Shown here in pieces: positions 10,578 through 44,433 of a stretch of DNA of 44,578 nucleotides. A program made the translations under genes and the position numbers. The notes below the pieces were generated by a model. The model had not been told where the DNA came from and searched no databases. It saw only the letters and a list, made by a program, of their open reading frames with translations. The first letter of the stretch is position 1. Every line of letters begins with the position of its first letter. The DNA is from a virus. The stretch spans positions 1 to 44,578 of IMG/VR virus record IMGVR_UViG_3300033142_000724. One strand, written 5' to 3'.

Positions 10578-10735
10578 TGGTATATTATTTAGTACCAATT
10601 TTGTTTTTTGTTTCTAGCGCTTTTCAGCTGTATCATTTTTTTGTTAAAGACAACTACTTAAATTTTATTGCTTCATTAGGTTTTCTAATTGCTGCAATAT
10701 CTGCACTTCATAGTGCAAGAAAGATTACCAAATGA
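10577..10735 (+). CDS. Small two-pass membrane protein
   Basis: 52 residues with two hydrophobic segments, about 3-20 (YYLVPILFFVSSAFQLYH) and 28-44 (NFIASLGFLIAAISAL), and a basic end (SARKITK). The ATG is at a TAATG junction and is preferred to a longer frame inside the previous gene. Size and topology fit a small holin or an early inner-membrane protein. It is about 1 kb upstream of the amidase, so a lysis role is possible but not shown. Confidence 0.6.
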   Translation: MVYYLVPILFFVSSAFQLYHFFVKDNYLNFIASLGFLIAAISALHSARKITK

Positions 10736-11097
10736 AAGTCATTTACATAGCTGGACCATTCAGAGCTGATACCACATGGGAAATTGAATGCAACGTTAGA
10801 AGGGCTGAAGAATTGGGGCTATGTGTTGCATCACTTGGGGCAATGCCATTAATACCTCATGCCAATACAAGATTCTTTCACGGTTTGATTGATGATCGGT
10901 TCTGGCTAGATGGTACACAAGAGTTGTTGAAGCGATGTGATGCAGTAATAATGATGAAAGATTGGCAATGCTCAACAGGTTCAAAGGGTGAAAAGGAATT
11001 GGCAGAAAATTTGAACATACCAATTTTTTATGAATCTGAAACTGTCAGTGCTCTTTATGACTGGCTGAAAAAAGAAAACGAAAAAAGGAATTACTAA
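10732..11097 (+). CDS. DUF4406 / nucleoside deoxyribosyltransferase-like protein
   Basis: 121 residues. The start KVIYIAGPFRA is the typical first strand and loop of this Rossmann-like family. A PLIPH segment and a later ...CDAVIMMKDWQCSTGSKGEKELAENLNIPIF follow, with Ser and Gly-x-x-x-E in the place of the catalytic Glu of nucleoside 2-deoxyribosyltransferases. It may modify or salvage nucleotides; members of DUF4406 are mostly untested. It starts at an ATGA overlap with the upstream stop. A large hairpin follows the gene. Confidence 0.8.
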   Translation: MKVIYIAGPFRADTTWEIECNVRRAEELGLCVASLGAMPLIPHANTRFFHGLIDDRFWLDGTQELLKRCDAVIMMKDWQCSTGSKGEKELAENLNIPIFYESETVSALYDWLKKENEKRNY

Positions 11098-11258: not shown

Positions 11259-11561
11259 ATGCCAGCTAAACCAACTAGGCCAACTAGATCAGTTGCCATG
11301 GCGGCGAAGTGTCATAACTGCACTGGTGGTTATCTAGATGGAAAAAAGGATTGTGAAAATACTCAATGTGAATTGTACCCATGGATGCCATACAAGAAAA
11401 TGAAACCCGATCTTGAATGGCTCAAATACAATCCAAAGCAAAAGGGGTTGGTAACATGGGAAGATTCACAAAGGGATCTAACAGACGAACAAAGGCAAGC
11501 AATTGCTGATCGGTTGTCCAAGTCTAGAAAATTGGAAGCTGATTGTGAAGATCTATTCTAG
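11259..11561 (+). CDS. Hypothetical Cys-cluster protein with acidic EDLF end
   Basis: 100 residues. A Cys cluster in the N-terminal half (KCHNCTGGYLDGKKDC..CELYPWMPYKK) looks like a zinc site and belongs to a pattern common in phage early proteins. The middle has Trp and Lys, then a helix (TDEQRQAIADRLSKSRKL). The C-terminus is EADCEDLF, an acidic Leu-Phe end shared with several replication proteins of this genome. AGAAAGG lies before the ATG. Confidence 0.72.
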   Translation: MPAKPTRPTRSVAMAAKCHNCTGGYLDGKKDCENTQCELYPWMPYKKMKPDLEWLKYNPKQKGLVTWEDSQRDLTDEQRQAIADRLSKSRKLEADCEDLF

Positions 11562-12948: not shown

Positions 12949-13173
12949 ATGGAAACATTAACCGCAACTGGCAGAAGAAAGGCACTGTTGCTTGGTGCCA
13001 AAATGATTGAATGGTATCTGTTGAAGAAAGGAGAGGTAACGATCCCTGGCTTTGGTAAGTTCTATCTTTCAGCAATCAAGGTGAAGGCTGCTGTTGGTGA
13101 TGCAGATACAAAAGAAGTGTTTGCAATTCGCTTCAAACCATCAGCAAAACTAAAGGGGGTTTTCAATGGGTAA
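12949..13173 (+). CDS. HU/IHF-like DNA-binding protein, copy 1
   Basis: 74 residues. The motif V-T-I-P-G-F-G-K-F-Y-L and the end IRFKPSAKLKGVFN match the saddle part of HU/IHF proteins (v-x-l-x-G-F-G-x-F ... v-x-F-x-x-x-x-x-L-K). The N-terminal helices are short. The arm that carries the R-N-P-x-T-G tip in HU seems reduced. It probably bends or coats DNA. AAAGGTG lies before the ATG. It overlaps its paralogue, so the two may form a heterodimer. Confidence 0.78.
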   Translation: METLTATGRRKALLLGAKMIEWYLLKKGEVTIPGFGKFYLSAIKVKAAVGDADTKEVFAIRFKPSAKLKGVFNG

Positions 13174-13414
13174 GTCATATGAACAGCAAGAAAAAGGAGT
13201 GCTGAAAGATGCAGCTGAAATCATCACACAAGAGTTAGAAGGTGGTGAAGAAATTAGTATACCCAAGTTTGGCAAGTTCTATCTTACCAAGATCAACACA
13301 TCAACCACCATTGGTGGTGCACCTGATACAGTGATGAACAAAGTTTGTTTCAGACCTTATGGGCAATTGAAATCTAGAGTTGCCAAAAAAGAGTCTGTTG
13401 ATGATTTGTTTTAA
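13166..13414 (+). CDS. HU/IHF-like DNA-binding protein, copy 2, acidic DDLF end
   Basis: 82 residues. It shares IPKFGKFYL and a VCFRPYGQLKSRV end with the gene before, so it is a divergent second HU-like protein, with the same reduced arm. It adds KKESVDDLF at the C-terminus, an acidic Leu-Phe end like those of other replication proteins here. IHF-style heterodimers with one tail-bearing subunit are a reasonable idea. It overlaps copy 1 by eight bases. Confidence 0.75.
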   Translation: MGKSYEQQEKGVLKDAAEIITQELEGGEEISIPKFGKFYLTKINTSTTIGGAPDTVMNKVCFRPYGQLKSRVAKKESVDDLF

Positions 13415-13423
13415 GGTGATGCA

Positions 13424-13774
13424 ATGAAACATTTATTTATATATGTTGCTGGTCCAACACAAAGCTATATGTATGAAGATAAGGCTGATAGGATTGCTGG
13501 TCTAGATGTTATCTTCCATCGGCTAATTGATGCAGGAATACCAACACACCAATCAGATGTGTATAACAAAAGTGTTCTAAGCTGCTGTTCTGATCTGCTG
13601 GTGATAGCATATAAAGGTTTCAATGATGATCCTATCACCAAGAATATGATTGCTTTTGCCAGAGCAAACGACATACCAACATTCATCATGAACCCTGGTG
13701 AAAGCTCCAACCTGGACAACTTCATAACTGTATTGAGAAACCGCACCACTAATGGTGCACAACAAACCCGATAG
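13424..13774 (+). CDS. Divergent nucleoside deoxyribosyltransferase-like / SLOG-like Rossmann protein
   Basis: 116 residues. It opens with LFIYVAGPTQSY, the same A-G-P strand-loop as the gene at 10732. Later SDLLVIAYKGFNDDPITKNMIAFARANDIPTFIMN follows the family layout. The Glu expected after the Gly-rich loop is replaced by Asn/Met, so catalysis may be lost. It may bind a nucleotide or nucleotide-derived ligand. The ribosome site is modest (AAGGTG). Confidence 0.65.
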   Translation: MKHLFIYVAGPTQSYMYEDKADRIAGLDVIFHRLIDAGIPTHQSDVYNKSVLSCCSDLLVIAYKGFNDDPITKNMIAFARANDIPTFIMNPGESSNLDNFITVLRNRTTNGAQQTR

Positions 13775-13791
13775 GGGAAAGGTAAGAGACA

Positions 13792-14322
13792 ATGAAGATT
13801 TCAGTAACCATCGATGTGGGCTCGGAGAATGAAGAAGGTGTATTGAAGCTGCTTTCTAAGCTCAATTCTAACGCACCTAGCAGCCCTTCAGAGGGGTCTA
13901 GACCGGCTCCGAGTGCCACAACCAAGCCCATTGGCAAACGGGACGTTAACAAGGCATATAAGGACCTTACAGAAGAGAATGGTGCAAAGGCTGGAAGGGC
14001 TGTGCTGGCCAAGTTTGAAGCTGATGATATTGGGGAGCTTGATAAGGGCAAGTATGCTGAGTTTGTGAAGGCTTGCAAGGTTGCGCTTGGTGGTGGTGGT
14101 GATGGTGGTGGTGAAGAGACTACTGAAGAAACCCCTGAAGAGAGCACTGAGGAAACCATCACCAAGAAAGATGCCAAGAAAGCCTTAATGGATCTGATTG
14201 GTGAGAATGGAAAGAAAGACGGACTGAAGGCATTGAAGAAGCACAAGGTAGAGAAACTATCTGAATTGGATGAAAGCAATTATGCTGCATTTGTTCAGAC
14301 TTGTTCAGAGTTGATGGGCTGA
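13792..14322 (+). CDS. Two-repeat helical protein with acidic linker
   Basis: 176 residues. A short strand-rich start (KISVTIDVGSENEEG) is followed by two related domains of about 54 residues, from about 47-101 and 123-176. They share I-x-K-x-D-x-x-K-A, L-x-x-E-N-G-x-K, and E-L-D-x-x-x-Y-A-x-F-V. The linker is Gly- and Glu-rich. This single domain is known at the ends of various phage proteins, with no fixed function. The pair may be a protein-protein platform in the DNA-handling module. Confidence 0.7.
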   Translation: MKISVTIDVGSENEEGVLKLLSKLNSNAPSSPSEGSRPAPSATTKPIGKRDVNKAYKDLTEENGAKAGRAVLAKFEADDIGELDKGKYAEFVKACKVALGGGGDGGGEETTEETPEESTEETITKKDAKKALMDLIGENGKKDGLKALKKHKVEKLSELDESNYAAFVQTCSELMG

Positions 14323-14343
14323 AAAGAAAGGGATGGTAAGACG

Positions 14344-14733
14344 ATGGCAAAGAAAAACTCACTGAATGAAATGATTGCTGCTGCTACCACTGAATTCACA
14401 GCTGCAATCATCGATGCAATCAAGGCTGCTACATTGGATGATCTCCAATCACTAGCACCAACAAAGCGGAGAGGCAGAAAGCCCAGTAGAAAGCCCGGAC
14501 CTAAGCCCGGTAGAAAGCCCGGACCTAAGCCCGGTAGAAAGCCCGGACCTAAGCCCGGTAAGAAACGCGGACCAAAGCCCGGTTCAAAGCGCAAGCCCGG
14601 ATCTAAAAAGCCCGGACCTAAGCCCAGTAAGAAGAAGGCAGATGTGAAGAAGGTTGCAAAGAAGGTTGTGAAGAAGGCAGCTGTGAAGAAGGCAGCTGTG
14701 AAGAAGACAACCAAGCCAACTGAAAAGAAGTAA
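14344..14733 (+). CDS. Histone H1-like / AT-hook-like basic repeat protein
   Basis: 129 residues. A short helical start (about 1-38) is followed by RGRKP and repeats of R/K-K-P-G-P-K-P-G (about 42-95), then KKVAKKVVKKAAVKKAAVKK. The RGRKP unit is an AT-hook core, and the Lys-Ala tail resembles bacterial histone H1-like proteins. It should bind DNA with little sequence demand and compact it. Together with the two HU-like genes it forms a chromatin-like set. The DNA under the repeats has a 24-base tandem unit. Confidence 0.8.
   Translation: MAKKNSLNEMIAAATTEFTAAIIDAIKAATLDDLQSLAPTKRRGRKPSRKPGPKPGRKPGPKPGRKPGPKPGKKRGPKPGSKRKPGSKKPGPKPSKKKADVKKVAKKVVKKAAVKKAAVKKTTKPTEKK
14486..14634 (+). repeat. 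24-base tandem coding repeat
   Basis: The unit AGAAAGCCCGGACCTAAGCC (plus four bases) is repeated about three times exactly and then in changed copies. It encodes the R-K-P-G-P-K-P-G motif. Such a repeat can expand or shrink by slippage, so the length may vary between relatives. Confidence 0.7.
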
Positions 14734-14739
14734 TTGCAA

Positions 14740-15969
14740 ATGGGTTTACTAGCACAGCCTAGGAAACCTAGCTGGTCTGCCAGTTCTGCACATCGCTGGA
14801 TGCAATGTTCAGGGTGTGTAGGGCTGTGCAGATGGGTTGAACGTTCACCATCTAGTATCTATGCAAGGGAAGGTACAGCAGCCCACCACCTAGCGGCTAT
14901 CTGTTTAGAAGATGGTTGCATTCATCCAACACATTTGATTGGTGAAAAGCTGACAGCTGAACAATACTATGAAGATGATTACACCTTCACAGTTTCAAAT
15001 GATATGGCGTTAGCTGTTGGCAAGTATACCAGTCTGATTGAATCCCTTGCTAGTCACCACAAAGAAACCATCATACTAATTGAAAAAAAGATCTCACTAG
15101 CCAGCATCAATAAAAATATGCGTGGTGTAATTGATTGCTCTTTGGTGGTTCCTGGTGAAAGTCTGAAGGTACTAGATTACAAACATGGAAAGGGTGTGAT
15201 TGTTGACATTGAAGATAATGAACAGCTTATTTATTACGCACTAGGAGTAATAGAAAAGTTAGATTCAATGGGTGTTGATACTGACTTCAAAACAATAGAG
15301 CTATTTATTGTGCAGCCTAGATCATTTGGTGCATCAATTAAATCCTGGTTGATTGACAACCCTAGAAAATTTGTGAATACGTGGCACGGCAAGATCAAAA
15401 AAGCATACATAGCAACAATAGAAAACCAGGATGAATACCACATCAATAAAGATTGCAGATGGTGTAATGGTCTGGTGTGGTGTCCTAAGCTGAAAGAGTT
15501 TTGCCTAGACATTCAACGCAACATTGAAGGCAGGTATAAACAGATGAAAGATTTAAAGCCAAGTGAACTAACAGAACTGATCAGGGTTGCACCATCTGTA
15601 AATGCATATCTCCAAGCTGTTGCTGGCCATGGTAAAGAACTTGCATTGAATGGTAAAAAGTTTGATGGGTACAAGCTGGTACAAGCTGGTAGATCTTCAC
15701 GCAATTGGTTGAGTGGTAAAGAAGCTGATGTTATTTCATTCCTAGAAGATGAATGTTTCTTGGATGAAGAAGATTTCAAAACAGGTAAACTAATGTCACC
15801 AGCACAGCTAGAAAAGGAGATACCAGCAAAGCTATTTGACAAGTTAGGCAAATTCATTCACAGAAAAAGCTCAAGTGGTTTTGCATTGGTCCCTAACTCT
15901 GATCGAAGGCAAGCAGTAACAACAGCTGAAGATGATTTTGAAGATGATTTTGATGATCTGTTTAGCTGA
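14740..15969 (+). CDS. DUF2800 Cas4-like PD-(D/E)XK nuclease
   Basis: 409 residues. The start SWSASSAHRWMQCSGC and the layout match DUF2800. The nuclease core is Asp132 (GVIDCS), then Asp146 and Lys148 (VLDYKHGKG). Cys23 with Cys239, Cys242 and Cys248 (CRWC...C) is placed like the 4Fe-4S ligands of Cas4/AddB-type nucleases. It probably trims DNA ends for recombination or replication. The end EDDFEDDFDDLFS carries the acidic Leu-Phe motif. A TTG two codons upstream, directly after the previous stop, is an alternative start. Confidence 0.82.
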   Translation: MGLLAQPRKPSWSASSAHRWMQCSGCVGLCRWVERSPSSIYAREGTAAHHLAAICLEDGCIHPTHLIGEKLTAEQYYEDDYTFTVSNDMALAVGKYTSLIESLASHHKETIILIEKKISLASINKNMRGVIDCSLVVPGESLKVLDYKHGKGVIVDIEDNEQLIYYALGVIEKLDSMGVDTDFKTIELFIVQPRSFGASIKSWLIDNPRKFVNTWHGKIKKAYIATIENQDEYHINKDCRWCNGLVWCPKLKEFCLDIQRNIEGRYKQMKDLKPSELTELIRVAPSVNAYLQAVAGHGKELALNGKKFDGYKLVQAGRSSRNWLSGKEADVISFLEDECFLDEEDFKTGKLMSPAQLEKEIPAKLFDKLGKFIHRKSSSGFALVPNSDRRQAVTTAEDDFEDDFDDLFS

Positions 15970-15980
15970 AAGGTGAATTG

Positions 15981-16181
15981 ATGGTATATAAGATTGAAGG
16001 TGCAACCATCAAAGCAACAACTGGTAAAGCTATTCTAGTTGAAGCTGATTGTTTTGATGAAGATGAATGGATACCACTATCACAAGTTGATGATGAATCC
16101 GAGATATGGAGCAAAGGTGAAGAAGGTACATTGACTGTTAGTGATTGGATTGCAAACAAGAAAGGGTTGAACAATGACTGA
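15981..16181 (+). CDS. Hypothetical small acidic protein
   Basis: 66 residues, strand-rich first half (VYKIEGATIKATTGKAILVEA), then an acidic patch (FDEDEWIPLSQVDDESEIW). The I-x-A-T-x-K-A-I-L-V motif and W-I-P-x-S look like a small beta-barrel that I have seen beside phage single-strand binding genes. AAAGGTG lies before the ATG. It overlaps the next gene by eight bases. Confidence 0.65.
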   Translation: MVYKIEGATIKATTGKAILVEADCFDEDEWIPLSQVDDESEIWSKGEEGTLTVSDWIANKKGLNND

Positions 16182-16737
16182 TTTTATTAAGTCACCAGTT
16201 GGAAGGGTTAGTTTTCCATCAGTGTTTGAAAAAACATCATTTGAAAACAGTGAACCAAAGTATTCTGTAACTCTATTATTTGATGCTGATGATCCTGGTT
16301 TGAAGAAGCTAAAGAAGTTAGCAGCTGAAGCAATTAAAGAAAAGTGGAATGATGATCCACCTTCCAACATGCACAACCCTTTTAGAAAGGGATCAGAGAA
16401 ACCCGATCTAGATGGGTATGAAGGTAAGATATTTGTGAAGTTCAGTTCAACTCGTAAACCACAAGTAATGGACAAGTTCAAAAATGAATTGACAGATGTT
16501 GAAGATTTTTATGCAGGGTGCTTTGCTAAAGTGATGTGCAATACCTATGCATATGACAACATTGGAAGAGGTGTTGCTTTTGGGCTTGGCCATGTGCTGA
16601 AAGTAAAGGATGGTGATCCCTTTGGTGCTGGTTCATCTGATCCAATGGATGATTTCGCAGATGATTTTGATGATGATGATAATGATGGTGATGATTCTTC
16701 TAATTCAAGTGATGATCTAGATTCTCTTTTCGATTAG
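16174..16737 (+). CDS. DUF2815 single-stranded DNA-binding protein
   Basis: 187 residues. An OB-fold body (about 1-145; KYSVTLLFDADDP, then YAYDNIGRGVAFGLGHVLKV) matches the DUF2815/Enc34-like phage SSB family. It would coat single-stranded DNA at the fork. The tail (about 148-187) is almost all Asp/Asn/Ser and ends in DDLDSLFD, like the acidic docking tails of T7 gp2.5 and bacterial SSB, but with an own Leu-Phe core. It sits between the Cas4-like nuclease and the DNA polymerase, a common order. Confidence 0.85.
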   Translation: MTDFIKSPVGRVSFPSVFEKTSFENSEPKYSVTLLFDADDPGLKKLKKLAAEAIKEKWNDDPPSNMHNPFRKGSEKPDLDGYEGKIFVKFSSTRKPQVMDKFKNELTDVEDFYAGCFAKVMCNTYAYDNIGRGVAFGLGHVLKVKDGDPFGAGSSDPMDDFADDFDDDDNDGDDSSNSSDDLDSLFD

Positions 16738-16746
16738 ACTTTACCA

Positions 16747-18750
16747 ATGCCATTCAACCCACAAGTTGTAATTGATTTTGAAACCCGTTCAGAATTGAAC
16801 ATAACAAAAACATCTAACCATGTTTATGCAACACACCCTTCAACTGAAGTGATGTGTTTAGCATACAAGATCAACGGGAAAGAAACACAACTGTGGTTAC
16901 CTGATGATCATCTAATGCCAGAAAGCTTAGAAGGTATCATCAATAATGGCTGTGAAATATGGGGACACAACGTAGCATTTGAAAGAGCAATCTGGAATGC
17001 TATCATGGTTCCTGTTTTCGATTGGTGCAAAGTCAGTTTCAATCAGTGGTGCTGTTCTGCTGCACAAGCTGCTGCACTTTCATTGCCACGGTCACTTGAT
17101 AAGGTTGCAAAAGTTCTGAAGCTCACTGAACAGAAAGATGCATCTGGACATAAGGTAATGATGCGTCTTTCTAAACCTCGCAAACCTTCCAAGTATGATA
17201 AGAGCAAGTGGGATGAAACCCCGGAAAAATTACAGAAGCTTTACAGGTATTGCAAGCAAGATGTTGAAACTGAATATGCACTAACTGAAAAGTTACCAAA
17301 GCTAATACCATCTGAACAAAAGCTATGGCTGCTAGATCAGAAGATAAATGAACGGGGTGTATACTGCGATAGAGAAACCATCAACACCATCTTAGATATT
17401 ATTGATAGCATGTATGAAAATGCTTGTATGGAATTAGCAGAAATAACTGGTGGTGGGATTACTACACCAAACCAACGAGACAGAATAAAAGACTTTATAA
17501 GTTTTGTTGGTGGGCTTGATATGGATTCTCTAAATAAAGAAGATGTAATTGCAGCATTAGAAACAGACTTACCACCACCAGCTAGAAGGGTGCTGGAAAT
17601 TAGGCAGTTGCTAGGTAAAGCCAGCCTTGCAAAATACAAAGCATTCATTCAACGTATGAGTGCAGATGATAGAGTAAGAAATACTCTTATCTATTGTGGT
17701 GCTGATAGAACAGGCAGATGGGCTGGAAGTGGATTGCAGGTGCATAACATTGCGCGTGGTATGTTTAGTGGTGAAGATGAAATTAATTTCTGCATTGATA
17801 AAATCCAGACAAAGTGCCTAGATATTCTAACCATGATATATGACACCATCACTGATGTGATCAGCTGGCTAGGTAGATCAATGATTATGGCACCAGCTGG
17901 CAAGATGCTTTATTGTGGTGACTATTCTTCAATTGAAAACCGGGTTTTATTCTGGCTTGCTAGAGAAACAAAAGCATTGAAGGCATTGAAAGCAGTTGAT
18001 GCAGATCCAAAGAATAACCCAGACCTATACCGCATCACAGCAGGTACCATCTATAACAAGCAACCATTGCAGGTTACCAATGATGAAAGGTTTATAGGCA
18101 AGCAAGCTAACCTAGGTTTGGGTTATGGTATGGGTGCAACCAAGTTCAAAAGCAACTGTGAAGATAAAGCTGCTGCAATGGGGATGTATCTAGACTTACC
18201 ACCAGAATTCTATAAACGAGTTACAAAGACTTGGCGAAGTACATACAGCAATGTAAAGAAGTTCTGGAATGATATTGAATGGGCTGTGATAAATGCAATC
18301 TTAGATGGTAAGACTTCAGTTGTAAATAAATACATTCAGATTCAAATGAAGAAAGGGCTATTGCTTATTCAGTTACCTAGTGGAAGGTGCCTTGTATATC
18401 ATCAACCAAAGCTATCTGAAGAAATGACTTCATGGGGTGAAATGAAATACAAGATTTCTTACATGGGAAATCACAGCACTTCTAAGAAGTGGGTGAAGAT
18501 CTATTCATGGGGTGGAAAGTTTGTTGAAAACATTGTGCAAGCTGTATCAAGGGATCTACTTGCTCACGCAATGACAACAATAGATGAAGCTGGTTACTTC
18601 ATTACCATGCATGTACATGATGAAATTGTGTGTGAAGAATCTGAACTGCCATTCAATAAATTCTTAGAGCTAATGCAATCAAAACCAGTATGGGCTTTAG
18701 ACTGTCCGATCAAGGTGGAAGGTTGGAAGGGAAAGAGGTACAGGAAATGA
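16747..18750 (+). CDS. Family A DNA polymerase with 3'-5' exonuclease
   Basis: 667 residues. Exonuclease motifs: VIDFETRSE (Asp10, Glu12), GHNVAFERAIW (about 73-83) and Y-C-K-Q-D-V-E-T-E-Y (about 167-176). Polymerase motifs: A, GDYSSIENR (Asp392); B, K-Q-A-N-L-G-L-G-Y-G (Lys452); C, HVHDEIV (Asp625, Glu626). All are intact, so it should be the replicative polymerase. It lacks an obvious acidic end of its own. The next gene starts inside its last codons (ATGA). Confidence 0.93.
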   Translation: MPFNPQVVIDFETRSELNITKTSNHVYATHPSTEVMCLAYKINGKETQLWLPDDHLMPESLEGIINNGCEIWGHNVAFERAIWNAIMVPVFDWCKVSFNQWCCSAAQAAALSLPRSLDKVAKVLKLTEQKDASGHKVMMRLSKPRKPSKYDKSKWDETPEKLQKLYRYCKQDVETEYALTEKLPKLIPSEQKLWLLDQKINERGVYCDRETINTILDIIDSMYENACMELAEITGGGITTPNQRDRIKDFISFVGGLDMDSLNKEDVIAALETDLPPPARRVLEIRQLLGKASLAKYKAFIQRMSADDRVRNTLIYCGADRTGRWAGSGLQVHNIARGMFSGEDEINFCIDKIQTKCLDILTMIYDTITDVISWLGRSMIMAPAGKMLYCGDYSSIENRVLFWLARETKALKALKAVDADPKNNPDLYRITAGTIYNKQPLQVTNDERFIGKQANLGLGYGMGATKFKSNCEDKAAAMGMYLDLPPEFYKRVTKTWRSTYSNVKKFWNDIEWAVINAILDGKTSVVNKYIQIQMKKGLLLIQLPSGRCLVYHQPKLSEEMTSWGEMKYKISYMGNHSTSKKWVKIYSWGGKFVENIVQAVSRDLLAHAMTTIDEAGYFITMHVHDEIVCEESELPFNKFLELMQSKPVWALDCPIKVEGWKGKRYRK

Positions 18751-19016: not shown

Positions 19017-20428
19017 TGCACTTCACCCCATACCAGAAGCAAAGGGAAGCTATAACCTTTTTATTGAAGCACCCTTTCTCTGGTGTGTTTGCTGATCCTG
19101 GTGAGGGAAAGACAGCAATCACCCTTTCTACAATCAACATTCTAAAACGACTGCGAACCAATTACAGTGCATTGATAGTTGCACCGTTGACAGTTTGTTA
19201 CAATGTTTGGCCAGATGAAATAGCACTATGGGACCAGTTCAATGAAATTGATTGGTGTATTCTCCATGGGAAACACAAGCTAGAAAAGCTCCAAGAGAAA
19301 CATGATCTATATCTTATAAACCCCGAAGCAATGAAGTGGTTGTTTCAAAACCTTTCACGGTATTATAGAAAATTTCCTTACTATCATTTAATTCTAGATG
19401 AGAGCACCAGATTTAAAAATATGCGTGGTGTTCAGAACAAAACTGAAAGATGTAGAGCACTGAAGATCTTTCTTCACCGATTCAAAAGGCGTACCATTCT
19501 AACCGGGACACCAATCCCGGAATCATTACTAGATATATTCGGGCAAATGTATTGTATTGATGAAGGTAAAACCCTTGGTAAACACATTGTCATTTTCAGA
19601 GAAAAGTATTTCAATGATCGTGGATACAAACACCACCACAAATGGATTGCAAGGCCAGAAGCAAGCAAAGCAATTGAAGAAAGAATTGCACCTAGAATTC
19701 TTAGAATAGAAACAGAACACAAAAAAGATCCTATCATCAATAAAGTATGGGTAACATTACCACCAGAGATTCAAGCCAACTATGATGAATTAGAAAAGAA
19801 ACTTTATACCACCATTGAAGGTGAAGAATATTTTACAGATACAGCAACCAGCAAATACAATGCACTTAGACAAATTGCATCAGGTTGCCTTTATGAAAAA
19901 ATAGATTCTTTTGAAAACACACCTAAACTTTTCAGAAGAAAAACTTATAATTTACACCTTGCAAAATTTGAAGCTCTAGAGAATCTGATAAATGAGCTTC
20001 ACGGTAAACCGCTGCTGATAGGATACTATTATAGATTTATCATACCTCACCTAGAGAAAGCCCTAAAGGTGTCTCTACCTGCCTTGAATGGTGACACCAG
20101 CCAGTCTACAATGAAAAAGTATATAAGGCAGTGGAACAAAAGCAAGCTACCACTGATGGTGGGCCAGCCCCAATCTATAGGCCACGGGTTGAACCTGCAC
20201 AAAGGGATCGGGCGAGATATAGCATGGTACAATTTACCAGATCGGTTTGAATGGTTTGATCAGTTCAACAGAAGAATTCACAGATCTGGTGTAACAGCTA
20301 GGGTGCACTTGATACTTGCTCGAAACACCATCGATCAGTTATTATGGTATCGACTGCACAAGAAAGGTTCCAATCAGCAGACTCTATTGGATGGGCTGAA
20401 AGGTTATCTAAAAGAAAGGTATGGATGA
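19016..20428 (+). CDS. SNF2-like superfamily 2 helicase/translocase
   Basis: 470 residues. The start [11 protein letters not shown] is a Q-motif, then Walker A at 29-33 (DPGEGKT), DEST at 128-131, T-G-T-P-I-P-E-S (motif III) and a second lobe ending in [12 protein letters not shown] and [10 protein letters not shown] (motifs V and VI). It should move on double-stranded DNA. Together with VRR-NUC it forms a pair found in many phages. It uses GTG as start, directly at the upstream stop. Confidence 0.88.
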
Positions 20429-21198
20429 TGAAATATTTTTTTATTATTTTTCTAATTGGTTGTGTAGAACATCACCACCATTATTATGATGCAAGCCCAT
20501 TAGAAGATGTTTCATCTTCAGATGGTGATACAGATTCAGATAGTGATACAGATACAGACACAGATGCAGATTCAGATAGTGATACAGATACAGACACAGA
20601 TGCAGATACAGACACAGATGCAGATTCAGATAGTGATACAGATACAGACACAGATGCAGATACAGACACAGATGCAGATTCAGATAGTGATACAGATACA
20701 GACACAGATGCAGATTCAGATAGTGATACAGATACAGACACAGATGCAGATTCAGATAGTGATACTGGTCTAGGTTGCTTAGAAGGTAGCTATACTATTG
20801 AAAACCAGTTTGATGTAATACCAATTCAACCATACAGCTGCATCAGTGGAAATCTAATAGTTGATGCACCAGGATTACAATTACTAGAATTACCAAATTT
20901 AAAAAGCATTGGTGGCAATCTGTGGATCACAGGATCATTCTTCAACCTAGATGGTATTTCAACAATAGTAAATATTGGTGGTGATTTAAATATTAGTGGT
21001 TGTGAAAACCTAGTAAACCTAAATGGTCTAGAAAATATTATCACTATTAATAATTTATATATGTATGAAAACCCAAGCTTGTTAGGGTGTGAAATATGTG
21101 AATTTATCAACCAACTAAATTTAACCCCTGATAATTTTGAAGTATACTATTTTTTAGAAGATGAATGCTATTCTGAATTGAATGGTTTTGATTGCTAA
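20425..21198 (+). CDS. Surface lipoprotein with Asp-Thr/Ser repeats and receptor-L-like repeats
   Basis: 257 residues. A short signal with lipobox L-I-G-C (lipidated Cys at residue 13) is followed by VEHHHHYY. From about 37 to 114 there is a nearly pure Asp-Ser/Thr/Ala stalk. The C-terminal part (about 116-257) has strand repeats of the G-x-L-x-I-x-x-x-x-x-L-x-x-L type ([25 protein letters not shown]), as in receptor L domains, and six or more Cys. It is probably exported to the outer membrane. Such stalked lipoproteins are common in Myxococcota, so host origin is likely. It may block superinfection or mask the receptor. Confidence 0.78.
20533..20766 (+). repeat. 36/18-base tandem coding repeat
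   Basis: Five 36-base units encode [12 protein letters not shown], with two 18-base half units (DTDTDA) inserted and a last partial unit. The units are nearly identical at the DNA level, which suggests recent expansion by slippage or recombination. The stalk length is thus probably variable. Confidence 0.8.
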
Positions 21199-41738: not shown

Positions 41739-43697
41739 CTAGCCAGCATTGCTAGTAATGGCGCGGCTTATAGCCTGTAACACCATCTTGCTGTTGATGG
41801 TCTGAAGCTGTACAGCAGTCGCGCCTTTGTCCCTAGCAGCCAGCCTAAGCTTCATCACTTCAGCATCTAGGAATACATCGGAAGCACACAGATTTAGCAC
41901 CCTGAGATCCAATGCTTCATTACGTCTACCACTTGGACAATAGAAACTTCCATCCGCTCTTTTCTCTTCAGCTGTCAGCATACGAAAATACTTTTCGCTA
42001 TAGTCCATTGGAAACGAGCAATAGCCCGGTTTCTGATAACCAGTATCCTGATATGGTATCTTCAGATTGTTGTATACTAAATTCTTATAATAATTAGTTG
42101 ACACTTCACACAAGGTCAAATCAGATGCAACCTTCACTAACTTAAACCGCTTGAAGGTGTGTGTTGTAATGCTATCTCCTTCATCACTCTTCTTCTTTTT
42201 GAGCAATGAAAAACCCTTAGATGGAAACGTATTTTGCCAACCACCAGTAAAACGGTAAACGGTATCGGCGTGCATACCATCACCAGAATCAACCAACACC
42301 AATCTTGGTTCAAATACAGCACCATCTTTTCTTTCATACTTAAACCCATCTTCTAACCAATGCTGTGTTAACTTGTCCCATGCACCATCATTAGGATCGT
42401 CAATTGCACCTTCAATCACATAATAAGCAATGCTCCAAGTTCTGTACCCTAGACCATGTGCACACACTTCAACTTCTAATCTTGCTGGGTTATTCTCATC
42501 ACGTTTAACACCACGTTGCACATCAATAGCCATTGTAAGAAACAAAACTTTATCTGATGGTATTGTCCGGGATTTGTATCCACCACGTAATTCAATTACC
42601 TTTTCCAGTGATGGACGTGCACCAGTTTGCCTATATGGTTCACCAAGATATAGATTAACAAATGAACGCATACCATCAGGTTTCTCTTGTGCTTCTAAAA
42701 ATTTTGCATACAGTTCAAACCATGTGAGCATTCCAACGGGTGAATACAATGATGAAAGATGGTAACTTCTTTTGTATGGTGAATTAGAAGTTGAAGTTGG
42801 TTCCCATCTTCCACGTTTATACATCATTGTTTTGTGATGGTTTTTTATTGGTTCCTTACATCCATCACACAAATAATATACATCTTGCAATACACCAGCT
42901 TTGGTTTCTGCTTTCATTCCAGAACTAGAATCATCATTCCCCCAAACAAGCGGTTGAAATTTTCCGCAATGCGGGCAAGGGATCATAAACAATCTTTGAT
43001 CACCATCTAGGTAACCTTGATAGATTAATGAACTATCAAAAGTTGTTGGTGTAGAAAAGTCAAATACCTTTCTTCTATGTGCCCATGCATTAGTTCTTAC
43101 ATAAGAAACGTCTAGATAATTTCCTTCACCAGATAATAATTGTGGTGGTGCACCGTCAATTTCATCACGAACAAGAATCCTTTTTGAATCGGCTCTAAGG
43201 CTGGCTGCACTTTGAGCTGATGCCATATCCAATGTTCCACCAACAAACTCTTTTATAAAAGTCTTATCACCACTTCTTCTTACTTTTGGGTTTCCACTTT
43301 GAGCAAATATCTTTGGACGAATACCACAAGAATCAATTAATGGTTCAAGTCTTTTGGTTGCCCAGCGTTCAAGCAATCGATCTGTTGCACTGATAAATAA
43401 TATCTCAGCTGGGCTTTCATCCATCCAATATGCAACAACGTTTTCAGCTGATGCAGTTGCACCAATCTGTGCAGCCTTCATCCATGACTGATGTTGTATG
43501 GGTGAGCTAGGAGCCATATTATCCATAATTTCTACAAGGTATGGTGTCCTAGCATTGGACCAGAAACCAGGAAAAGGTGTGTTAGGTGGAAGGATTCTTT
43601 TCCCTTCAACGTATTCAGAGATCAACCCATGGGGTCTAGTGATTGGTTTTCTATTATTCTCTGCAATAAGAAATGCAATATCAGATTCAACTAGCAT
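41739..43697 (-). CDS. Terminase large subunit (GpA family)
   Basis: 652 residues. Lys74 and the following A-A-Q-I-G-A-T (Walker A of GpA type), M-D-E-S-P-A-E-I-L-F-I-S, and a zinc knuckle (CPHCG...CDGC, about 240-285) match PF05876. The C-terminal half with the nuclease Asp residues (MAIDVQRG, VDSGDG) is intact. It is both packaging motor and end-cutting nuclease; GpA proteins usually cut at cos sites. Confidence 0.92.
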   Translation of the reverse strand: MLVESDIAFLIAENNRKPITRPHGLISEYVEGKRILPPNTPFPGFWSNARTPYLVEIMDNMAPSSPIQHQSWMKAAQIGATASAENVVAYWMDESPAEILFISATDRLLERWATKRLEPLIDSCGIRPKIFAQSGNPKVRRSGDKTFIKEFVGGTLDMASAQSAASLRADSKRILVRDEIDGAPPQLLSGEGNYLDVSYVRTNAWAHRRKVFDFSTPTTFDSSLIYQGYLDGDQRLFMIPCPHCGKFQPLVWGNDDSSSGMKAETKAGVLQDVYYLCDGCKEPIKNHHKTMMYKRGRWEPTSTSNSPYKRSYHLSSLYSPVGMLTWFELYAKFLEAQEKPDGMRSFVNLYLGEPYRQTGARPSLEKVIELRGGYKSRTIPSDKVLFLTMAIDVQRGVKRDENNPARLEVEVCAHGLGYRTWSIAYYVIEGAIDDPNDGAWDKLTQHWLEDGFKYERKDGAVFEPRLVLVDSGDGMHADTVYRFTGGWQNTFPSKGFSLLKKKKSDEGDSITTHTFKRFKLVKVASDLTLCEVSTNYYKNLVYNNLKIPYQDTGYQKPGYCSFPMDYSEKYFRMLTAEEKRADGSFYCPSGRRNEALDLRVLNLCASDVFLDAEVMKLRLAARDKGATAVQLQTINSKMVLQAISRAITSNAG

Positions 43698-44433
43698 TAT
43701 CTAAATTCTTTCCTAGTTTATCTGCACCATATTTAATCAGATAGTCATTAAAAATTCTTTGAATATGGGCAAGTGATCTGAATACTTCTTTTTCAATCAG
43801 CTGGTTTATTGCCAAAATACAATCAGGATCATCACTTGAACATATTGCAGCAGCATCAGTTGCTAGTTTATCTCCAAGTGTTCTTAACTCATTTACATCA
43901 ATCAAATACAATTGGGCAAAAATATTTCTTATGGTATGTCGCGGAAGAAGCTGATTTCGTTCTTTTCGATTTGCGATTTGTAGTTTAGTAACTGCCTGTC
44001 TGGATTTTTCCAAGTCAAGACTTGTTTTATCTCGGACAAAATCCCCTGTGATTCCATCTTCATCACCAAACAAATCTTGAATTTCTTCATCAGATGTTTT
44101 GCTAGGCTGCTTTTTACTGGAAAGCTTTTCAGATTTTTCTTCATCATGTGGTGTTTCCTCGCCTAATAGATCTGCAAAGTCTGCTTCAATCTCTGATCTA
44201 GTGCGTTTCTTTTGCTTTTCTTTTTTCTTTTTTGTTCTTTGTACTCTTTTTTTCTGTGTTTCTGTTAGCAATTTTGCTTTCAGATTTTCCATATAATATC
44301 TATTGGTAGGGTGGCGGGGGTCTATTCCTTTAACAGTCTTTGTTAAACGCCCGTCCTTGATCGCAATGCAAACCGCTGCTGGCGTAATACCTAACAATTT
44401 CGCAAATTTAGCTTGGCTCATATATTCAATCAT
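43687..44433 (-). CDS. Terminase small subunit, HTH-type
   Basis: 248 residues. The start (AKFAKLLGITPAAVCIAIKDGRL, about 7-30) is a winged-helix-turn-helix like that of lambda Nu1. A Lys/Arg-rich piece (about 60-80) follows, then an acidic linker with ADFADLLGEE and EEIQDLFGDEDG (about 84-126), and a helical C-terminal part. The acidic Leu-Phe pieces recall those of the replication proteins. It overlaps the large subunit gene by 11 bases. No good ribosome site was seen. Confidence 0.82.
   Translation of the reverse strand: MIEYMSQAKFAKLLGITPAAVCIAIKDGRLTKTVKGIDPRHPTNRYYMENLKAKLLTETQKKRVQRTKKKKEKQKKRTRSEIEADFADLLGEETPHDEEKSEKLSSKKQPSKTSDEEIQDLFGDEDGITGDFVRDKTSLDLEKSRQAVTKLQIANRKERNQLLPRHTIRNIFAQLYLIDVNELRTLGDKLATDAAAICSSDDPDCILAINQLIEKEVFRSLAHIQRIFNDYLIKYGADKLGKNLDNAS

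Follow-up and report, generated by a model that had tools for sequence, protein, structure and literature searches.

What do two HU-like genes do beside the replication genes of a phage? A sequence-only reading of this locus had proposed that they form, with a two-repeat helical protein and a Lys/Arg/Pro protein carrying AT-hook-like units, a chromatin-like module that could coat or fold phage DNA or block host nucleases. The locus lies in a single IMG/VR virus record, IMGVR_UViG_3300033142_000724, the whole of which (44,578 bases) is the window analyzed here. Genes to ~21.7 kb are on the plus strand and serve replication and lysis; past that point they are mostly on the minus strand and structural, and the GC skew switches at the same place. 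The features that bear on the question are as follows.

11259..11561, plus strand: 100-aa Cys-containing protein, tail ...ADCEDLF
12949..13173, plus strand: HU1, 74-aa minimal HU-like protein, net charge +8, no acidic tail
13166..13414, plus strand: HU2, 82-aa HU/IHF-like protein, net charge 0, C-terminal SVDDLF tail
13400..13411, plus strand: codons of the HU2 C-terminal DDLF tail
13424..13774, plus strand: DUF4406/deoxyribosyltransferase-like gene, assigned by eye, between the HU pair and the phrog_408 gene
13792..14322, plus strand: two-copy phrog_408 protein, 176 aa, three-helix domains at ~49-98 and 122-176
14344..14733, plus strand: Lys/Pro-rich basic protein, 129 aa, 24-base repeat
14740..15969, plus strand: DUF2800 / phrog_69 exonuclease, Pfam E 2.3e-64, tail ...DDFEDDFDDLFS
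16174..16737, plus strand: Enc34/gp2.5-type ssDNA-binding protein (SSB, T7-type), PF10991, E 1.9e-38, tail ...DDLDSLFD
16747..18750, plus strand: family A DNA polymerase, by profile matches

The proposed module does adjoin replication genes: the exonuclease, SSB and family A polymerase lie directly downstream, followed by a VRR-NUC-like gene and then a SNF2-type helicase gene. The idea of three nucleoid proteins in one run fails because gene 13424-13774 separates the HU pair from the two remaining genes. A Pfam scan of the product of this gene gave no significant match; a second DUF4406/deoxyribosyltransferase-like gene, at 10732-11097, matches DUF7768 and DUF4406.

Assignment of HU1 and HU2 to the HU/IHF superfamily

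The HU1 and HU2 genes overlap by 8 bases on the plus strand, and a purine-rich, ribosome-binding-like stretch precedes each of them. The overlap had been described correctly; the word 'divergent', also used of the pair, applies to their sequences and not to their orientation. HU2 matched Pfam PF00216 with 26.1 bits (E=1e-5), above the 22.4 cut-off, and HU1 scored 18.7 bits (E=0.0021), below it. The two proteins are paralogs (E=6e-7, 35% identity). Against a canonical profile of six HU/IHF sequences (hhalign), HU1 scored 24.5 and HU2 28.3, both above the top score of 22.6 among 400 random phage ORFs (70-130 aa). The membership of HU1 is supported only through its paralogy with HU2 and its canonical-profile score. 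A phmmer search with HU2 matched IHF-alpha (1ihf, E 0.0037), the nearest solved sequence relative, and single-chain IHF (E 0.0032), with the arm tip in a gap. The likeness to HU/IHF proteins lies in the motifs of the beta-saddle and C-terminal helix (GFGKF..., F[KR]P...LK).

A predicted structure of HU2 agrees with this assignment. The model was built on a 5-sequence alignment and has middling confidence (pLDDT 69.5, pTM 0.46); it consists of a helix (residues 4-25), three strands and a C-terminal helix. Its best PDB matches were HU/IHF chains (Foldseek best E 1.2e-2, prob 1.00), with Z up to 6.0 over 70 residues. The HU chains aligned from about residue 12, and helix alpha1 is therefore missing from the model. 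Sequence and predicted model thus support the HU fold for HU2, as had been expected of the locus.

Both proteins depart from canonical HU/IHF. The N-terminal helix alpha1, which completes the HU dimer body, is missing from HU1 and HU2 in the alignment, the DNA arm is by sequence ~5 residues shorter than that of HU, and the RNPxTG tip is missing from HU1, whose arm tip has no proline. In HU2, which may retain the intercalating proline, GGAPDT pairs with GRNPQT in one alignment, and the tip is gapped in another. HU2 also carries the DDLF tail, which was rightly ascribed to one HU of the two. Judged by their sequences, HU1 and HU2 are same-strand, overlapping paralogs of the HU/IHF superfamily. 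Their overlapping genes and unequal charges (HU1 basic, HU2 neutral) fit an IHF-like HU1-HU2 heterodimer, which is a plausible arrangement.

Distribution of the HU pair

Scans of viral contigs, with single proteins and twice with alignments, found a single HU relative, on the 100.6-kb record L086. It is 35% identical to HU2 and has neither the RNP tip nor a DDLF end; a second HU-like gene lies ~5 kb from it. A genome scan for HU relatives found none, and tblastn searches of HU1 and HU2 over phages gave no match. The same search with the L086 relative returned T5-like phages only, weakly (E 0.2). PF00216 was searched against 50 whole records, namely 49 found via the SSB or polymerase plus that of L086; two matched, those of L085 and L086. 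A search of 11 of the 50 with an HU1/HU2/L086 alignment matched L086 only. The nearest relatives by primase (E about 1e-151), L006 (42.5 kb) and L009 (44.4 kb), had no HU match in their records. These absences are counted in virus records, which can be fragments.

The sequence-only reading had itself set the occurrence of the genes in relatives as a check on the chromatin module, and the result went against it: HU is absent from L006, L009 and 48/50 records, and the rest of the cassette is retained where it is absent. By this pattern the HU pair is accessory, a rare, lineage-specific addition beside a widespread exonuclease-SSB-polymerase cassette.

A C-terminal tail shared with SSB and exonuclease

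HU2 ends in SVDDLF, the exonuclease in FDDLFS, the SSB in LDSLFD and the product of ORF 11259-11561 in CEDLF. The motif [DEQ][DS]LF, picked after the HU2 tail was seen, occurs in the last seven residues of 4/49 curated window genes; in 5000 shuffles the count averaged 0.016 and never exceeded 1. Among window ORFs of at least 60 aa, a broader pattern, [DE][DES][LMI]F followed by at most two residues, matched 5 of 148; in the other loci it matched 9 of 6360 ORFs. Six of those nine matches are the SSB gene itself, two of the six being one record fetched twice. Compared with 53 SSB tails of the family, SVDDLF fits the SSB type, in which acidic residues are followed by a hydrophobic or aromatic end. 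The available text of PMC5686142 describes the T7-type SSB tail as an interaction segment in T7 gp2.5 and Enc34. The primase carries the motif internally at two places, one of them acidic, and the 43687-44433 protein has it within an acidic stretch.

A general exonuclease-SSB tail likeness across phages was rejected (42 loci, permutation P=0.65), and the sharing of tails is thus particular to this phage. The VRR-NUC ORF end, VDELFGI, which is the fifth window match to the broader pattern, was rejected as a member of the tail set; its relatives (VDELL in L059) suggest that it is part of the domain. DDLF as a published peptide motif for phage SSB was also rejected, as the papers found use these letters for an unrelated peptide. 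A search of partly available literature on phage HU pairs and DDLF tails found no tail-bearing phage HU. The tails shared in the window may have a parallel in L006 and L009, where Phe is the last residue of the Lys-rich protein (GEKF), the exonuclease (FEKF) and the SSB (GQF).

The phrog_408 protein upstream of the exonuclease

The two-repeat protein had been counted as a nucleoid protein. It instead matches phrog_408 over two stretches (E=8.5e-11) and has a net charge of -6. A tblastn search with it over phages gave no match. Of 61 exonuclease loci searched with a local profile built from it, 31 had a related gene on the upstream side of the exonuclease. A more sensitive count placed a phrog_408-type gene at most 900 bases upstream of the DUF2800 exonuclease in 30/55 distinct loci, each with at least 350 bases upstream. 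In family members a variable linker joins an N-terminal segment to a C-terminal three-helix domain. Of the exonuclease-adjacent genes listed, seven (L006, L009, L014, L067, L071, L073 and L079) contain RGRP, an AT-hook-like core. Two-copy phrog_408 proteins near the exonuclease also occur at L040:2819-3478 and L074:4036-4782. The two-repeat protein belongs to the exonuclease-SSB-polymerase neighborhood and is not a nucleoid protein by any evidence.

The C-terminal domain of its predicted structure (residues 122-176) has a pLDDT above 90. Among the PDB matches listed for the model, the only notable one was the C-terminal domain (CTD) of the 80alpha Sak annealase (8qe9; Foldseek E 4.0; Z 5.0, rmsd 2.9 over 52 residues). 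A family profile scored 20.6 against three staphylococcal Sak C-terminal domains, and the best of 60 column shuffles scored 13.5; the score against all seven Sak sequences was lower, 15.0. In an hhalign control against 500 real proteins, a single Sak sequence ranked 9 of 501; of the eight that outranked it, at least five are cryptic members of this upstream gene family. A profile of the phrog_408 alignment gave weak, scattered matches only among PDB sequences, and a Pfam scan of the alignment gave nothing consistent. By profile and predicted model, the phrog_408 domain may thus bear a weak resemblance, near noise level, to an annealase C-terminal domain.

As far as the available texts describe them, the domains concerned have relevant partners. 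The C-terminal three-helix bundle of Redbeta binds exonuclease and SSB (PMC8303780), and Sak80alpha coordinates with SSB80alpha by way of its own C-terminal domain and the tail of the SSB (PMC11846896). The phrog_408 protein differs from both in being free-standing, without an annealase core, and in having two copies of the domain in the window.

The Lys/Pro-rich protein

The Lys/Pro protein contains 35 Lys and 18 Pro in 129 residues, has a net charge of +36 and is encoded with 4.7 copies of a 24-base unit. Its earlier description as a basic, AT-hook-like repeat protein holds for composition and repeat and for one RGRK unit; the AT-hook part gained no Pfam AT_hook match, and no other Pfam family match carried weight. 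Lys/Ala/Pro-rich, H1-like proteins exist in bacteria, for example Chlamydia Hc1. The window protein resembles them in its very basic, low-complexity make-up and differs in its GPKPGRKP repeat and N-terminal helix-like segment.

Counterparts in position and composition exist in L006 and L009: immediately before its phrog_408 gene, each encodes a Lys/Ala-rich protein of 96-108 aa that contains KRGRKPGSK. A basic-composition filter over 64 exonuclease loci passed seven distinct upstream ORFs, several of them doubtful as genes. The protein thus has such a counterpart in two relatives and is not a general feature of the neighborhood.

A model for the HU pair

HU proteins are usually viewed as free DNA architects. 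Our leading explanation, held tentatively, is that an SSB-type (or clamp-type) tail brings an HU1-HU2 heterodimer to the replication/recombination complex of the phage. The reduced HU1 and HU2, made from overlapping genes, would probably heterodimerize, with the basic HU1 doing most of the DNA binding and the neutral HU2 supplying the DDLF tail. This tail would copy the acidic, hydrophobic-ended type of the phage's own SSB, also present on the exonuclease; the pair would thereby dock onto the exonuclease, SSB and family A polymerase and may shape DNA locally at forks or ends, without serving as bulk chromatin. As a candidate to read the tails we propose the neighboring phrog_408 three-helix protein. 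A tail that HU2 has in common with SSB and exonuclease would illustrate how a nucleoid protein can become wired into a replication machine, and a family that recurs beside a common exonuclease-SSB-polymerase cassette would gain a concrete proposed role.

The replication module itself has a known counterpart. The Enc34/Nazgul-like module shares the T7-type SSB (DUF2815/PF10991), polymerase, VRR-NUC, helicase and primase with the window, according to the available part of PMC5686142. Unlike the window, it has no HU gene named there, and the word 'exonuclease' is absent from the main text.

The strongest competitor, which we consider somewhat unlikely, is that HU1 and HU2 are ordinary architectural phage HUs, acting singly or as homodimers, on DNA of the phage or the host, in transcription or compaction, and that the tail is a chance acidic end. 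HU/IHF-like genes are known in phages: two per phage are described for crAss-like IHF_53 and IHF_54 in the available text of PMC7886860, and crAss001 is annotated with two (gp14 and gp42). On these sources the HU pair itself is not new. The available text of PMC7886860 places the conserved crAss-like IHF gene in the structural block and proposes DNA compaction in virion assembly, unlike the setting in the window. The crAss001 proteins gave weak scores only against a profile that includes HU1 and HU2, and no sequence closeness was detectable. The single relative found for the HU pair gives no sign of selection on the tail, as an ordinary role would have it. Against a chance end, the coincidence of the HU2 tail with those of the exonuclease, SSB and ORF 11259-11561 is far above shuffles, though the motif is post hoc.

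A more far-reaching form of the docking model is unlikely in our estimate. Here the HU heterodimer would be a part of the replisome, with DNA binding assigned to one subunit and the tail to the other, and a single docking site, perhaps on the free-standing, annealase-like three-helix protein, would be shared by HU, SSB and exonuclease or contested among them.

We regard as distinctly doubtful the reading in which the DDLF ends are host beta-clamp-binding peptides that tether HU2, the exonuclease, the SSB and the ORF 11259-11561 product to the host sliding clamp. It is a live rival because the clamp motif shares the DLF core: the available text of PMC8341153 gives the consensus QL[S/D]LF, with DLF as its subsite-1 portion, and three of the four window tails contain DLF. 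No clamp gene was recognized among the window ORFs read, and two genes of the nearest relatives that look methyltransferase-like by eye end in QLNLF (L006:4769-5314), a consensus-like clamp-binding peptide, and TIPLF (L009:4244-5215). All four window tails nevertheless lack the Gln at position 1 of the consensus and have acidic residues before LF, as SSB tails do, and the prevalence of the SSB gene itself among the tail-pattern matches in other loci likewise favors an SSB-type tail.

It is very improbable that the HU pair, two-repeat protein and Lys/Pro protein jointly coat or fold phage DNA. The genes are all confined to 1.8 kb, and in L006 and L009 the phrog_408 protein contains the AT-hook-like RGRP and a Lys-rich linker, with the Lys-rich RGRKP protein just upstream, but most records keep the cassette without HU, gene 13424-13774 breaks the run, and the two-repeat protein is net acidic and phrog_408-like. 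Nor was there evidence for a role in packaging DNA or in protecting it from nucleases; the genes belong to the plus-strand early/replication half, apart from the minus-strand structural genes.

Other features of the window

A promoter and terminator scan found sites no more frequent than in shuffles. The product of 20344-21198 contains a long Asp-Ser-Asp-Thr repeat. The terminase (41739-43697) is reported as 100% identical, in the best segment, to one on the 5.4-kb viral contig L087, and a near-identical phage therefore exists elsewhere.
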